A DNA stretch of 55,424 nucleotides from Flavobacteriaceae bacterium. Its GTDB lineage: Bacteria; Bacteroidota; Bacteroidia; Flavobacteriales; Flavobacteriaceae. Both the position numbers and the translations under genes were made by a program. This document shows, piece after piece, positions 48,217 to 55,372 of the stretch (its first letter is position 1; each line of letters starts with the position of its first letter). Location of the stretch: contig JAIUMH010000003.1 in the NCBI GenBank assembly GCA_022565635.1, forward strand, positions 1 to 55,424, written 5' to 3'. The notes under the pieces were generated by a model. It did no database searches, was not told the origin of the DNA, and saw nothing but the letters and a program-made list of their open reading frames with translations.

Positions 48217-49023
48217 TTAATAGCTATAATTGTATTTACGTTTATTTCTACTTAATATATCCATAAATAAGTAGAACATTGGCCCATGAGACATCTCAAA
48301 ATCATGATTACCTGTAGAATTTAACTGAAAAATATATCCCAGCTCTAGTCTTGTCCAATCCCAGAAACGATACCCAACCCCTACAAAATTTCGATTTTGA
48401 GAAAAGTAATTATCGCCATAATTAGGACCAAATTCTACGTGCATTTCTGAATACGTTGAAGTATATAATGTATTATTAGTATAAAAATAATCGGTATTTA
48501 AAGGTATTCTAACCCGCATTCTATAACGAACACGCCAATTGTGATTTGGCCCTTCGGGACGGTCTATACCTCTCCATCTTGATTCAAAGCGTAAACGATG
48601 CGTAAAATTAAACCTTCCTGCAAAGGCATAATTATTTATTTGAAGTGTTGAACGCACTTCTCTTTCATAATCACCGTCTAAAGCATCCTCAAACGAAAAA
48701 CGTGGAGTGGAATTAAAATGCCCAATTGGGTTAAAACTTATTCTTGTCAATTTACTGTATTGATATGCAATCCACGGTCTAATACTCAAACGTAGAGGTC
48801 TATCCCAAAAATCACTTGAGTTTAGTTCGCTTTGTCTTCTGTAAACTACATCTAATTCCCAAGCCCATTTGGTATCTTCACCAAAAAAGTCTGAAATAGT
48901 ATATTTGGTATACATGATTCGGTTTTCTCTGAAATCTGGTCCATCATCATCTTGCCCATGCATAACTGCAACGGCAAATAATATACTTACAAATAAGACA
49001 AAATATTTATTATTGTAACCCAT
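48217..49023 (-). CDS. DUF2490 family outer-membrane protein
   Basis: The protein has 268 residues from the ATG at 49023, which overlaps the upstream stop by 14 bases. Earlier in-frame starts would lie deep inside the upstream gene and spoil the signal peptide. The signal peptide ends near VAVMHGQ. The body (for example WAWELDVVYRRQSELNSSDF, FAGRFNFTHRLRFESRW, VGVGYRFWDWTRLELGY) has the Arg- and aromatic-rich strands of DUF2490 barrels. The function of the family is unknown. Overlap with the large coiled-coil protein suggests that they work together. Confidence 0.8.
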   Translation of the reverse strand: MGYNNKYFVLFVSILFAVAVMHGQDDDGPDFRENRIMYTKYTISDFFGEDTKWAWELDVVYRRQSELNSSDFWDRPLRLSIRPWIAYQYSKLTRISFNPIGHFNSTPRFSFEDALDGDYEREVRSTLQINNYAFAGRFNFTHRLRFESRWRGIDRPEGPNHNWRVRYRMRVRIPLNTDYFYTNNTLYTSTYSEMHVEFGPNYGDNYFSQNRNFVGVGYRFWDWTRLELGYIFQLNSTGNHDFEMSHGPMFYLFMDILSRNKRKYNYSY

Positions 49024-51046
49024 AAATTCTTTCAATACGTTGTGGTACATTTTCTCTTCTAACAGCACGATCAATGCGCTGTACCTCTTCATCATTTTTC
49101 TTCACGAAATATTCTAAGCGCTCTTCTAAGGCTTTAAGTCTTTTTAAATAATTAAAAAACTCTTCGGTTTTATTGGTTTCCAAAAGACTATTTACATAGT
49201 GTACAAAAAGTACTTCTTTAGACTTTCGGTTAATGTTGGAATATATTCTTACTTCAGAATCTCTATAATCAAACGGATTATCTCTGTAAATGGTAAACAG
49301 CGAATCTGTTTTATGAATGAAATTATCAAAGCGTTTAAGCCTTGACTTATTGGCTATAATTTTTTCATTGACCTCAACTAAATCTTTTCCAAGTTTTAAC
49401 TTTTCTTCAAATTCATCATTATTAATGTAATTTTTGGACAGATGACTTATAATGTTTTTATTGAAGGCTAAATAGATGTTTGTACTCAATTCTCTGTCTT
49501 CAAATTTGCCATCTAACTTTTTACCTTGAACATATAGACTATCTCTTTCTTTGCTTAAGTGCAAAATTTTATTATTTAAGGAATCTATTTTTTCTTCTTG
49601 AGCAAATTGTTTAAACTGCTTATTTGTTTCTTCAATGTTTTGAAAAGAGCTTTTGATTAGGGAATCTTGTAAGTGATTTATTTTTTTGAGTGGTTTTTCA
49701 TTTTTCATCGCTTGTTCAAATGAAAAATCGATAGCTACCGAGTCTTTTTCTGAATCATAGGTAAAGTATTGGTAGTATTTCAGATTGATAGTATCTAGCA
49801 CATTTTCTAAGTACAAGTCTCGATTAACGAAGTCAAAATAGCTCTCTTTTTCTAACCCTACAAGGCTATCTATGATAATTAGCTTCTCTAAAAAGGCTTT
49901 AGTTTCTGCATATTTTCTTGATAATTCTTTGCTTTTGTCTTTATTTAAAATTACGCTTGAGTTATTTACAAAAGTGTGGATTGAATCAAATGATTTTTCA
50001 TTATTTTCAACCAATTCATCCATTAAAGACTGATTATTTTGGTTATAACTAATTTTAAATCTTCGAGTGAAATTAAATTGTAAGCTGTCCTTACTTAAAT
50101 TTCCTAAGCGGTGAAATTTATTAAGTTCATCAACTGTGTTTTGAATTAATTGATTTCCTTTTGTTTGTGCTTCAAGTTGCTTTCTGCTCTTCACCCCTGA
50201 GTCATAGTTGATACCAAAGCCACGATTAGAAAACTCAAAATTAACACTGTCCGAAGATTTAATTTGTTCAATTTTATCTGTGGTTGTTTGGTACACAATA
50301 GAATCTTTTAATTCATCGTTTTTATAAGTGATTATACGAGTTAAAAAGCCATCGTAATAGCTTCTTACTTCTTTAACCTTATGATCATCTTTAGAAATGT
50401 ATTGAATCACTAATTCACCATCTAAAAACCCTCCTTCATTAAAACTACCGTTTACTTTATTTTGGAGTTTATCACCGCTTATAAATTCAAAATCCCCAAC
50501 AGGAATTCCTTCAGAAAAATTAATTGAAGTAATTTTTTCAACTTTCGTTACAATACTATCAACCTGTTTAATTTCAACAACCCATTCATTTTCTGGTATA
50601 TTCTTAGTGTAAAAAAATTGAAAGTTAAGTTCTTCACCTTTTAGGTGATTATCTTGATTAACATTGTAATCATTTTCTGTATCTTTTTTGGAATTTTCTT
50701 TAAAAGTGATCTCTCCTAAAATTATTTTGAAATCTTGAATCTTGAACAGCCATTCACCTTCTTTTTTACTGTCTTTATAATTTCCAGAGATGTACAGTCT
50801 GTTTAAATCAAATTTTTGTTCCGTAAAATCGGTTTTAAAGCTGTAATTTCCATGCAATTGCAAAGAGTCTTTATCATGTTCTTTTTCAGATGTAAAGAAA
50901 ACTTCTTTGCCTTCATATTGATCAAAAATCACCGTATCTCTCTGAACCTTAATTAAACTGTCTAATTTTTTGGATGGCTTTTCTTGTGCACTTGTAAAGA
51001 TAAAAAAGCCTAAAGCTAAAATAAGTATGTAGTACTTCATAATCAT
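49010..51046 (-). CDS. Large exported protein with MORN/YwqK-like repeats and helical C-terminal region
   Basis: The 678-residue protein has a signal peptide (about 1-20, FTSAQ end). The N-terminal half carries G-x-W repeats such as ISGNYKDSKKEGEWLF, VNGSFNEGGFLDGELV and a following VKEVRSYYDGFLTR; these recall MORN and YwqK-type repeats. The C-terminal half (about 285-678) is highly charged and helical, probably coiled coil. The start codon shares its A with the stop of the upstream beta-barrel gene (TAATG). It is a paralogue of the gene at 53375. It is probably periplasmic. I do not recognise a known family function. Confidence 0.75.
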   Translation of the reverse strand: MIMKYYILILALGFFIFTSAQEKPSKKLDSLIKVQRDTVIFDQYEGKEVFFTSEKEHDKDSLQLHGNYSFKTDFTEQKFDLNRLYISGNYKDSKKEGEWLFKIQDFKIILGEITFKENSKKDTENDYNVNQDNHLKGEELNFQFFYTKNIPENEWVVEIKQVDSIVTKVEKITSINFSEGIPVGDFEFISGDKLQNKVNGSFNEGGFLDGELVIQYISKDDHKVKEVRSYYDGFLTRIITYKNDELKDSIVYQTTTDKIEQIKSSDSVNFEFSNRGFGINYDSGVKSRKQLEAQTKGNQLIQNTVDELNKFHRLGNLSKDSLQFNFTRRFKISYNQNNQSLMDELVENNEKSFDSIHTFVNNSSVILNKDKSKELSRKYAETKAFLEKLIIIDSLVGLEKESYFDFVNRDLYLENVLDTINLKYYQYFTYDSEKDSVAIDFSFEQAMKNEKPLKKINHLQDSLIKSSFQNIEETNKQFKQFAQEEKIDSLNNKILHLSKERDSLYVQGKKLDGKFEDRELSTNIYLAFNKNIISHLSKNYINNDEFEEKLKLGKDLVEVNEKIIANKSRLKRFDNFIHKTDSLFTIYRDNPFDYRDSEVRIYSNINRKSKEVLFVHYVNSLLETNKTEEFFNYLKRLKALEERLEYFVKKNDEEVQRIDRAVRRENVPQRIERIYGLQ

Positions 51047-52545: not shown

Positions 52546-52553
52546 TACCTTTG
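52546..52553 (+). promoter_or_regulatory. -7 box (TACCTTTG) of the pseudouridine-synthase-like gene
   Basis: TACCTTTG fits TAnnTTTG and lies 13 bases before the ATG at 52567. This argues against the upstream TTG at 52531 as a start. Confidence 0.65.
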
Positions 52554-52566
52554 CAAAAAAAATAAA

Positions 52567-53370
52567 ATGAGCAAAAATCAAAACAAAAACAGCAAAAAAC
52601 CTAGATTTAGTAAGAAGGAAGTAGCACAATCCAAAGTGGACCAACAACTGAAGAATCCAGAGGCTGGTATGCGTTTAAATAAATACATCTCTAATGCTGG
52701 AATTTGCTCCAGAAGAGATGCAGATATTTATATTCAAGCTGGAAGTGTTACTGTGAATGGAAAAGCAGTTACAGAATTAGGATATAAAGTAAAATTAAAC
52801 GATGACGTTCGTTTTGACGGGAGAAGAATTAGCCCAGAACCAAAAGCTTACGTACTACTTAACAAGCCCAAAGGCTTTTTTGTAACGGGAAGTTACGAGC
52901 AAAACAATAAAACGGTAATGGATTTAGTGGCCAGTGCTTCCAAGTCAAGAATTTCACCCATCGGAAAACTAGAAACCAGCGCCACTGGATTGGTCTTATT
53001 TACCAATGATGGTACTTTGGCTAAAAAACTAACAGGTCATAAAAAAGGGGTAAGGCAGTTGTATCAATTAGAGTTAGATAAGCAAGTTAATGAGGAGCAT
53101 TTAGAAGAGATTAAAAAAGGCCCTTTTATTGAGGGGAAAAAAGTAATTATTGAAGATGCTGCTTTTGTAGAAAACAAACCTCATCATATTTTAGGCATTG
53201 AATTAAAAAGCCAGCGCAGCCATATTGTACAACGAATTTTCAAAAAATTTGGCTACGAAATTATCAAAATGGATCGTGTGGTCTATGCTAATTTAGACAA
53301 GAAAAACTTGCCTAGAGGTCATTACAGGCATCTAACAAAACAAGAAGTGATTAATTTAGGAATGGTTTAA
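52567..53370 (+). CDS. RsuA/RluB-family pseudouridine synthase homologue lacking the catalytic Asp
   Basis: The protein has 267 residues from the ATG at 52567. A basic Asn/Lys-rich leader (1-34) precedes a normal S4 RNA-binding domain (35-85, MRLNKYISNAGICSRRDADI). The synthase domain follows (about 90-267, YVLLNKPKGFFVTG). In active members the catalytic Asp is in GRLD; here that site is PIGKLETSATGL, with E136. A second conserved segment, usually GxNRxVRRxF, is SQRSHIVQRIF. Fold and RNA binding look intact but pseudouridine formation is doubtful. It lies between a barrel gene and a MORN-like paralogue gene (4-base gap). Confidence 0.85.
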   Translation: MSKNQNKNSKKPRFSKKEVAQSKVDQQLKNPEAGMRLNKYISNAGICSRRDADIYIQAGSVTVNGKAVTELGYKVKLNDDVRFDGRRISPEPKAYVLLNKPKGFFVTGSYEQNNKTVMDLVASASKSRISPIGKLETSATGLVLFTNDGTLAKKLTGHKKGVRQLYQLELDKQVNEEHLEEIKKGPFIEGKKVIIEDAAFVENKPHHILGIELKSQRSHIVQRIFKKFGYEIIKMDRVVYANLDKKNLPRGHYRHLTKQEVINLGMV

Positions 53371-53374
53371 TAAT

Positions 53375-55372
53375 ATGACATATCCAGAAAATATTTGCCG
53401 TACAAAGTTGAAATGCTTAACGCTATTTTTTTTAAGCTTGTTAAGCTTTACCAGCGTTGCTCAAAAACAAAACATTGAAAATTATCAATTAAATGATAGT
53501 ATAGTTGGTGAATTAGAATTTGATTACAAAATTAAATCTAGAGATACTATTTTTGATGGCGAATATAAGTTTATCTCTACAAAAGAAAATGGACGTGAGG
53601 ATTTTAGATTTTTATCCATCAAATATCTTGGGAATTTTAAAGATGACTTGAAAGACGGTGAGTGGATTTTTAGTAGAAAGAAAATGAACACAAGTGAGGC
53701 GTTTACCGTTGATAATTACACCGTCAATTATTTAACATCGGGAACAGAAGATCAAATAAAAGCAGAATTTGAAAAGGGTTTAGCAAATGGTAAATGGACT
53801 TATTTAAAACAAGATTTTGTAAACTCTAAACCTAAAGATACACTTTTTAAGGCGACCATTAACCTGAAAGATGCTCTAATGAATGGTAAAGTTGACGCAA
53901 AAGCAGATAAAATAAGCTTAAATGGCAATTTTAATGATAAAGGGCATTTACACGGTGAATGGGAAATCATACATCAAGTTGGTGAGGAACGCTTAAAAGA
54001 AATCAAGGTATTTAATGATGGAGTCTTTAAACGCAATTATTTTTTAATAGACGATAAGGAAATTGACATTGAATATACTGGTTTTGACACTAGCGTAGAT
54101 GATGATGAAGATAACTGGATAGAAATTAATATTGATGAAAATTATTTTGATATTTTTGAATTAACTAATATTGGTGTAAGTGATGATATCAGTTTTGTTA
54201 ACACTAGTGAAATCAGTAAGATTTTAATTAAGGGCAACCAATTTATACAAAATACTATACTCAATTTTGGTTATTATAAAAAAATGAATATTTGGAAAAG
54301 TGTTCGTGGAAATGAGGTGATAAATTTTGGAAAATTCAAGGTAAGAAAATTTGAATACACAAAAGACGAAAAAAAACAGATCTCTAAAAGCCAAGATTAT
54401 TTAGTCTTAATTAAAGAGAGTCTCAAAGATTTTGAAGAAAATTCAAAAGTTACACTTGGCAAGCCAGCTTATGAGGGTTTAAATAAAATAGAGCGTGTAT
54501 TCAAAGAATATGAAAAAAATCTTGATGCTTTAGAATTAATTGTTGAAACCATCAATAACAAAGCTTTTGAATACGTAGTAAGGGAAGATCTTTTTCCAAA
54601 TTTTGCACCTAACATCAGTTTCCCTAACCAAATGAGTTATAGTTTTCAAGATGAAGATATTGCTTATGAACATAATTTTCCGTCTACGCTCCGGCCTAAA
54701 GAATACAATATAGAGAAATCTGTACAATTGCTGAAGGAAATTGCTGATGATATTAGTAAACTTAATGATGAACTTGAAAATGTCATTAATCGTATGGAAA
54801 AAGAAGAGTCTTTGGCAGAGGATGAAGAAAGACTTGTTCAGTTGAAAAATGAAATCATTAAAAAATTTGATAAATCAAACGATGTTAGTGATTTTAACCA
54901 ATTTCACGAAGATTTAGGAGGTCAAATAATCAAGTTTGTAGAGGATAGATTTAATGACTATGGAAGATTACAAGTAGACGAAAAAAAGGAAGAAATAGAT
55001 TATTACTTAGATTGTTTTGAGGATATTTCAAAATTATGGAATCGCTTAGATGAGTTCAAAGACGAAATAGACCGTATTGATGAAGAATATACGCGTACAG
55101 TCTTTAACCCGTTTATGATGACAGACATTAGTGAACGTGTAAAGGAAAGGGTTTATGACGCGTTTGAAGAGGTTGTTTTACCTCATGTAATGTCTAATCT
55201 AAAAAAACAAACTGATTGTGGCAACATTCAAGAAAAGACAAAAAACCTCGATATCATTTATAAACGCATGATAGACATAAGAAAAGAAGACACTAAAGAG
55301 GAAGAGAAAGACTTAAGAAGAGAGAAAAACATAGACAAAATTCTTTCTATTTTAAAAATTGAATTGAACTAA
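53375..55372 (+). CDS. Large exported protein with MORN/YwqK-like repeats, paralogue of 49010-51046
   Basis: The 665-residue protein has a signal peptide (hydrophobic about 13-25, then SVAQ). The N-terminal half has the same kind of G-x-W repeats as its paralogue (LGNFKDDLKDGEWIF, LNGNFNDKGHLHGEWEI, LKEIKVFNDGVFKR). The shared motif KGNQ(F/L)IQNT lies near the middle, and a charged helical C-terminal half follows. It starts 4 bases after the pseudouridine-synthase-like gene and is followed 5 bases later by another exported protein that runs off the window. Function unknown; probably periplasmic. Confidence 0.75.
   Translation: MTYPENICRTKLKCLTLFFLSLLSFTSVAQKQNIENYQLNDSIVGELEFDYKIKSRDTIFDGEYKFISTKENGREDFRFLSIKYLGNFKDDLKDGEWIFSRKKMNTSEAFTVDNYTVNYLTSGTEDQIKAEFEKGLANGKWTYLKQDFVNSKPKDTLFKATINLKDALMNGKVDAKADKISLNGNFNDKGHLHGEWEIIHQVGEERLKEIKVFNDGVFKRNYFLIDDKEIDIEYTGFDTSVDDDEDNWIEINIDENYFDIFELTNIGVSDDISFVNTSEISKILIKGNQFIQNTILNFGYYKKMNIWKSVRGNEVINFGKFKVRKFEYTKDEKKQISKSQDYLVLIKESLKDFEENSKVTLGKPAYEGLNKIERVFKEYEKNLDALELIVETINNKAFEYVVREDLFPNFAPNISFPNQMSYSFQDEDIAYEHNFPSTLRPKEYNIEKSVQLLKEIADDISKLNDELENVINRMEKEESLAEDEERLVQLKNEIIKKFDKSNDVSDFNQFHEDLGGQIIKFVEDRFNDYGRLQVDEKKEEIDYYLDCFEDISKLWNRLDEFKDEIDRIDEEYTRTVFNPFMMTDISERVKERVYDAFEEVVLPHVMSNLKKQTDCGNIQEKTKNLDIIYKRMIDIRKEDTKEEEKDLRREKNIDKILSILKIELN

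Follow-up and report, generated by a model that had tools for sequence, protein, structure and literature searches.

The locus considered here raises a twofold question: does a protein with the fold of a pseudouridine synthase and a Glu at the site of the catalytic Asp still form pseudouridine, and, if it does not, for what is it kept? The window, that is, the whole stretch of DNA analysed, comprises 55,424 nucleotides of a Flavobacteriaceae genome. It is an open question whether rRNA modifying enzymes are retained for the modification itself or because they also have a structural function, and in PMC11194073 it has been approached with engineered dead mutants. In the flavobacteria, nature appears to have run the dead-mutant experiment repeatedly, with an intact RluF paralogue in the same genomes as the control. 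Our preferred reading, to which we give a probability of roughly 0.68, is that the gene encodes a recurrent RluB pseudoenzyme that is anchored by its S4 domain and retained for something other than catalysis, most likely 50S assembly. Four elements of this reading are inferred: that the protein is inactive, that psi2605 is absent, that pre-50S particles are bound, and that the function lies in assembly. We know of no activity or modification data for any of these proteins. The features referred to below are as follows.

52546..52553, + strand: TACCTTTG, 13 bases 5' of the ATG, resembling the Bacteroidota -7 element
52567..53370, + strand: RluB-like gene, putative pseudoenzyme, 267 aa plus stop
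52567..52665, + strand: Lys-rich N-terminal extension, residues 1-33, mostly predicted to be disordered
52669..52809, + strand: S4 RNA-binding domain, residues 35-81 (Pfam, 45.3 bits)
52849..53241, + strand: degenerate pseudouridine-synthase domain PF00849 (PseudoU_synth_2), residues 95-225 (Pfam, 51.8 bits)
52966..52968, + strand: Lys134, at the position of RluB Arg108, the base-flipping Arg (by alignment)
52972..52974, + strand: Glu136, at the position of the catalytic Asp110 of RluB (by alignment)
53062..53064, + strand: Tyr166, at the position of RluB Tyr140, retained (by alignment)
53209..53235, + strand: altered motif III, SQRSHIVQR, with His219 at the position of Arg194 and Gln222 at that of the later conserved Arg of the motif

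The open reading frame was checked for frame and coordinates. Both Pfam and structure matches place its product, an S4 domain followed by a pseudouridine-synthase domain, in the RsuA/RluB/RluF family, and the protein aligns over nearly its full length with the solved RluF, RsuA and RluB. An AlphaFold model, for which the input alignment contained 52 sequences, has a mean pLDDT of 84.6, with values below 50 at residues 1-14 and 17-29 of the N-terminal extension; the relatives carry N-terminal extensions of varying length. The top PDB matches of the model are RluF, RsuA and RluB, with RluF (33% identity) the best, and the best NCBIfam score is likewise that of the RluF model (137.8 bits). Upstream of the gene, TACCTTTG resembles TAnnTTTG, the consensus of the Bacteroidota -7 element; as a promoter it would leave a very short leader. 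Note that promoters of this type lie outside the coverage of the sigma-70 scan.

Compared with E. coli RluB, the psi2605 synthase (PDB 4lgt, 4lab and 9cl9), the protein shares the S4 and synthase folds and the equivalents of Tyr140 and Arg17, but the equivalents of Arg108, Asp110, Arg194 and His131 are replaced, and the Lys-rich N-terminal extension is an addition. In particular, three separate alignments, with the chains of RluF, RsuA and RluB, pair E136 with the catalytic Asp, and multiple alignments pair it with the Asp of the intact relatives; the sequence around it reads PIGKLETSATGLVLFTND. The first-pass annotation, which was made from the letters alone, had reported both this Glu and a change in the conserved GxNRxVRR segment, and both observations were confirmed, the segment reading SQRSHIVQR. 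To these we add K134, at the Arg that precedes the Asp, and H219, at the motif-III Arg194. Three of the four catalytic residues scored are thus changed (K134, E136 and H219), and one is kept (Y166): the criteria of the Asp, the base-flipping Arg and the motif-III Arg for an active pseudouridine synthase are unmet, and that of the Tyr is met. In addition, the equivalent of RluB His131 is G157, this residue being His in all 64 of the intact relatives, in which the His-Pro start of the bulge-binding loop is present. By this residue the protein does not have the RluB form of the specificity loop, as opposed to that of RluF, which is one mark of an RluB orthologue.

The likely effect of such changes can be judged from the available portions of PMC3919597, from which the residue numbering of E. 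coli RluB is also taken. There, RluB R108A has 0.6% of the wild-type activity, RluA with Met or Lys in place of the base-flipping Arg is inactive, the Tyr140Phe form of RluB has about 3% activity, and mutation of the Asp abolishes activity in TruA, TruB, RluA and RsuA. The annotation had inferred a likely inactive enzyme that keeps a normal RNA-binding domain. The domain is indeed near-invariant, with R49, the equivalent of the RNA-anchoring Arg17 of RluB, intact; the inactivity remains an inference, which is supported by the three changed residues and by the recurrent loss of the Asp described below.

Two trivial explanations of the altered site were rejected. Misalignment, which had been named as a possible refutation, does not account for it: in several alignments no Asp lies within reach of the site, no shift brings one in, and Asp148 is a separate conserved residue that is also present in the intact relatives. 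A sequencing error or a mutation of a single strain is unlikely because the same Lys, Glu and His are found in three other genomes, G018 (the nearest relative found, 87% identity), G009 and G012.

The genome does not contain a working duplicate either. Its assembly (3.04 Mb, 99.1% complete) encodes five PF00849 proteins, so that the gene is not the sole representative of its family, a condition that the annotation had raised. The other four are RluD-like, RluA-like, RluF-like and RluE-like proteins with canonical motifs. A search for a second copy with GRLD, which the annotation had proposed, therefore has a divided outcome: two proteins of the RsuA/RluE type (the RluF-like and the RluE-like) have GRLD, but there is no second RluB-like protein. 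Given these four proteins with canonical motifs, at most one rRNA modification should be missing from the genome, and we infer it to be psi2605. RluF, the psi2604 synthase (PDB 3dh3), resembles the window protein in giving its top NCBIfam score and its top structure match, but the active site of the window protein is altered and the genome has a separate intact RluF-like protein, which scores 307.3 bits against the RluF model, just under the cut-off of 318. In E. coli, RluF acts on the same helix-93 stem-loop as RluB, as stated in the accessible part of PMC3919597.

Whether the degenerate gene is the orthologue of the intact ones or a spare copy can be judged from its neighbourhood. In 12 of the 17 named loci viewed, the rluB-like gene lies just 3' of the same two isoprenoid-type genes, presumably a kinase and a prenyltransferase, with one gene between in some. 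Three of these 12 loci are intact (Eudoraea, Polaribacter and Wenyingzhuangia) and nine are not; the latter include Mesonia, Christiangramia, Zobellia, Leeuwenhoekiella, Mangrovimonas and Mesoflavibacter. The neighbourhood is common to intact and degenerate loci, which suggests that in these the degenerate form is the same gene rather than a spare copy. The isoprenoid-type neighbours are missing in L071 (Psychroflexus), L123, L131, L146 and L147, and likewise in the window. The named loci of the comparison also include L082, L084 and L106. Note that two intact relatives, too, score higher with the NCBIfam model of RluF than with that of RluB (163.5 vs 139.1 bits for L075 and 158.4 vs 127.9 for L096). 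That the ancestral target was U2605 is inferred.

The gene is retained in the family: a match of RluB-like strength was found in 244 of the 249 family genomes. In a set of 60 relatives, 58 have a match. The closest named relative is the Psychroflexus genome of L071 (73% identity), and the other named loci are mostly Flavobacteriaceae, from which the identity of the sampled family is inferred. For a tally by genus, we took one genome for each of 203 genera, 202 of them from the family-wide search and one, g4 (G029), from the set of 60 relatives, with the window's genome representing its own genus. This gave 195 sequences; five genera had no RluB-like gene in the sampled genome (G082, G088, G157, G207 and G233, with an RluF-like match only), and three were not fetched (g150, g172 and g177). 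The Asp is lost in 131 of the 195 representatives, with eight different replacements: the residue is D in 64, G in 111, E in 10, H in 4, N in 2, and S, A, Q and K in one each. Three genera are mixed at this site. The complete Arg-Asp-Tyr-Arg set remains in 41 genera, and in the other 23 that keep the Asp another of the four residues is changed; some of these 23 may still work. At the same time, among 15 comparison positions, R36, N38, G45, R49, R50, N99, G141, D148 and D236 are identical in all 195 genera and six others in 183-194, so that the loss is confined to particular sites. The most eroded versions (L226-L234, with GRLD replaced by, e.g., GDMG or DFMN) are in small family genomes of about 1.7-2.2 Mb.

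Conservation of the Glu in relatives, another check that had been suggested, has no plain yes or no as its answer: the site varies freely, being occupied across genera by D, G, E, H, N, S, A, Q or K, and within the window's genus by Asp or Glu. In that genus, the first, second and fourth of the scored positions are K/E/H in the window, G018, G009 and G012, and K/D/H in eleven; T/E/K, or Arg together with Glu, occurs in other clades. Mesonia, Christiangramia and G033 share the Lys and the His with the window and still have the Asp. Judged from sequences alone, this pattern suggests that in the window's lineage the two Arg positions may have changed before the Asp. One clade of the genus, however, has Glu but Arg at position 134, which does not readily fit an Arg-first order, and the order of the changes is accordingly not settled. 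In genome G016 there are two different degenerate copies, L028 and L067, perhaps from a strain mixture (4% contamination).

The number of changes was counted by parsimony on trees from which the five signature columns had been left out; these are single-gene trees with long degenerate branches. The smaller tree has 169 rows, after removal of the fragments L047, L068 and L069 (genomes G002 and G007), of rows that do not differ in their last 225 residues, and of five RluF-like rows (L235-L239). On this tree parsimony requires 11 changes between Asp and non-Asp, 7 of which are forced by well-supported branches, and on the larger tree, with 347 rows, it requires 21, of which 9 are forced. For the state of the four residues as a whole it requires 5 changes on the 169 rows and 9, 5 of them forced, on the 347 rows. 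These counts carry no direction; we infer that the direction is loss because, of the 12 rows without a flavobacterium in the title, 11 carry the full set RDYRR. The exception, L093, is from a metagenome genome named Cytophagaceae; it is of the Gly type and groups with the flavobacteria of the Gly clade, so that the name is probably wrong.

We compared four degenerate lineages, namely, the window's clade, with 34 rows, the Gly clade, with 28, the Flavobacterium clade, with 9, and a Zobellia/Maribacter group, with 10, at positions conserved in at least 90% of 64 intact sequences; 20 of these positions are in the S4 domain, and 64 are in the rest of the protein after exclusion of the five signature columns, which are the residues that define the intact group. 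In the S4 domain, mean retention is 0.995-1.000 in the four lineages, and none of the 20 positions falls under 50%. Outside it, 18, 19, 19 and 11 of the 64 positions, in the above order of lineages, are retained in less than 50% of the rows. Loss in three or all of the four lineages affects ten positions, vs 3.6 expected by random draws (p = 0.00015, with positions and lineages treated as independent). They include the equivalent of His131, in the loop that binds the A2602 bulge, as well as His214 and Gly216, which lie within motif III or beside it. Thus, different lineages have shed the same residues of the RNA cleft and have kept the same docking domain. The net charge of the catalytic domain is 11.0 in the window's clade vs 10.0 in the intact group, and 5.8 in the Flavobacterium clade.

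The gene is under strong purifying selection and is not drifting. By the NG86 method, dN/dS is 0.016-0.047 in the 7 of 11 genome pairs for which dS is defined, 5 of the 7 being between Glu-type genes, and in 10 of the 11 pairs RluF has a higher dN than the RluB-like gene. Pairs from other clades likewise show a dN that is small compared with dS wherever dS is defined. Some of the dS values are near or past saturation. The RluF-like paralogue, on the other hand, keeps its active site: GR(L/I)DK, EY and (L/M)NRQIRR are present in all of 26 sequences, each from a different genome. Of these genomes, 21 have a degenerate RluB-like gene, which in 5 cases still has the Asp, and the other 5 are without an RluB-like gene.

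An altered enzyme might also reflect an altered substrate. To follow the target, we used a pattern for the hairpin of helix 93, CAG-NNN-GG with three bases open. It matched in 85 of 199 family genomes, all with TTC, i.e., with both U2604 and U2605, and had no match in the other 114. With at most three mismatches allowed, the hairpin was matched, and was unchanged, in 12 of 35 chosen genomes, and no match was obtained in the rest; in the window's genus it was matched in 9 of 12 genomes, again unchanged, including the Glu-type genomes G018, G009 and G012. A search for 23S rRNA in six genomes found nothing in four (G000, the window's own, G079, G135 and G220) and fragments only in G173; the window's own 23S rRNA is thus missing from its assembly. 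Because the 23S sequence is absent or fragmentary in these genomes, the lack of a match is more readily read as a lack of rRNA sequence than as a changed target site, as far as these five genomes go. Four of them (G079, G135, G220 and G173) are one-contig genomes, in which the absence is probably due to withheld or masked sequence and not to biology. A co-evolving loss of the target uridine was thus rejected where the hairpin is visible, since both uridines are unchanged; the substrate base is still there and only the enzyme has changed.

RNA-modifying enzymes with a role beyond catalysis are known. The TruB/TrmA-type tRNA chaperones have a folding role that is separate from catalysis, but they act on tRNA, not rRNA, and remain active enzymes. 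Another comparison is with the E. coli proteins treated in PMC11194073, for which the available part of the paper states that RlmB and a domain of RlmL aid 50S assembly when inactive (RlmB E198A and RlmL N309A); in these it is the presence of the protein and not the modification that helps, which is what we propose for the window protein. The difference is that those are engineered mutants of working enzymes, whereas the loss described here is natural and recurrent. According to the same partial source, inactive RluC and RlmN did not help assembly, so that a catalysis-free role in assembly is not a rule.

By analogy, the protein would be an orthologue of the RluB-type 23S rRNA pseudouridine synthase that has lost pseudouridine formation, through loss of its catalytic Asp and of two Arg, the base-flipping one and that of motif III, residues of the kind that appear to have been lost repeatedly in Flavobacteriaceae. 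It may dock on rRNA through its intact S4 domain, and selection would keep it as a non-catalytic factor, most likely in assembly of the 50S subunit around helix 93, near the peptidyl transferase centre. In line with this, E. coli RluB has been solved bound in a particle, PDB entry 9cl9, which to judge by its title is a ribosome intermediate fraction or assembly intermediate. Since residues of the RNA cleft and the bulge-binding loop are lost (the His131 equivalent and, in the window's clade, also that of Arg138), binding to helix 93 in the manner of RluB is not assured.

Three other readings have to be weighed against this one. The protein could be a working synthase that uses Glu136 together with Lys134 and His219, possibly at a low rate or with a different RNA as its substrate. 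In favour of this, Tyr166 is retained, no replacement of Asp is more conservative than Glu, Asp and Glu interchange more than once on the tree within the window's clade, and the strong purifying selection would also be expected. Orthologues with Gly, Ser, His, Ala, Asn, Gln or Lys at the site, however, carry residues most of which are unfit for the job of the Asp, and the equivalents of Arg108 and Arg194 are changed as well, the former to the Lys that inactivates RluA in the part of PMC3919597 cited above. The score of the protein with TIGR00093 points the same way: it is 97.7 bits (98.8 in the genome search), under the curated cut-off of 109.3, whereas two intact relatives reach 154.4 and 143.2 bits. 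Of two further relatives, Mangrovimonas, with Gly in place of the Asp, scores 91.5 bits, and Flavobacterium johnsoniae, which has the Asp but Lys in place of Arg194, 99.9. We regard continued catalysis as quite improbable. Much the same holds for the idea that the gene now encodes a different S4-type ribosome factor, acting, e.g., in quality control or rescue like RqcP or YlmH. It is attractive in that it is the S4 domain that has remained fully conserved, and in that RqcP and YlmH are S4 proteins that bind 50S-peptidyl-tRNA complexes (available part of PMC11317155), but overexpressed RluB did not replace RqcP in B. subtilis according to the same partial source, and no tie between the gene and a rescue factor was found in a search that did not cover RQC partners.

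It is also unlikely that the gene is simply decaying because the modification has become unnecessary, e.g., because RluF modifies the neighbouring U2604, although several observations are in line with it. The gene is absent from 5 of the 249 family genomes, two of the 5 being under 2 Mb, the most degraded versions are in several small genomes, and RluF accompanies RluB-like genes without the full Arg-Asp-Tyr-Arg set in 54 of 56 genomes, vs 11 of 30 for intact genes. These counts were read by hand from the match listings, with G186 and G115 left out for want of a tree row. On the tree, however, the association is not significant, with only 3-5 independent contrasts to support it, too few for a test, so that the counts are no more than suggestive of a decay of RluB enabled by RluF. 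Decay is further contradicted by the low dN/dS, by a dN mostly lower than that of RluF, by the near-invariant S4 domain, and by the lack of internal stops in two sets of listed RluB-like matches, with at least one stop, in G171, among the matches listed for the family-wide search. An S4-anchored pseudoenzyme kept for a non-catalytic role remains the reading that we prefer for the window protein.

For the family as a whole we are more cautious, and only lean towards the statement that in most Flavobacteriaceae the enzyme has turned, several times, into a non-catalytic, S4-anchored ribosome factor, with the structural role under selection and psi2605 absent from most of them. This reading makes it possible to say in advance which flavobacteria should be without psi2605 next to the peptidyl transferase centre. 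It also serves as a warning, since annotation by Pfam alone would call these proteins pseudouridine synthases, and most of them probably are not. No earlier report of such an RluB pseudoenzyme was found in searches of the open literature, which do not cover subscription papers.

Finally, the outer-membrane-barrel gene and the rluB-like gene of the window are flanked by two genes for large proteins, at 49010-51046 on the - strand (678 aa) and at 53375-55372 on the + strand (665 aa). Neither has a Pfam match at E 0.01. The two are distant paralogues of each other (23% identity, E 2e-08), and in the Psychroflexus locus L071 a protein of similar size is encoded two genes after the rluB-like gene.
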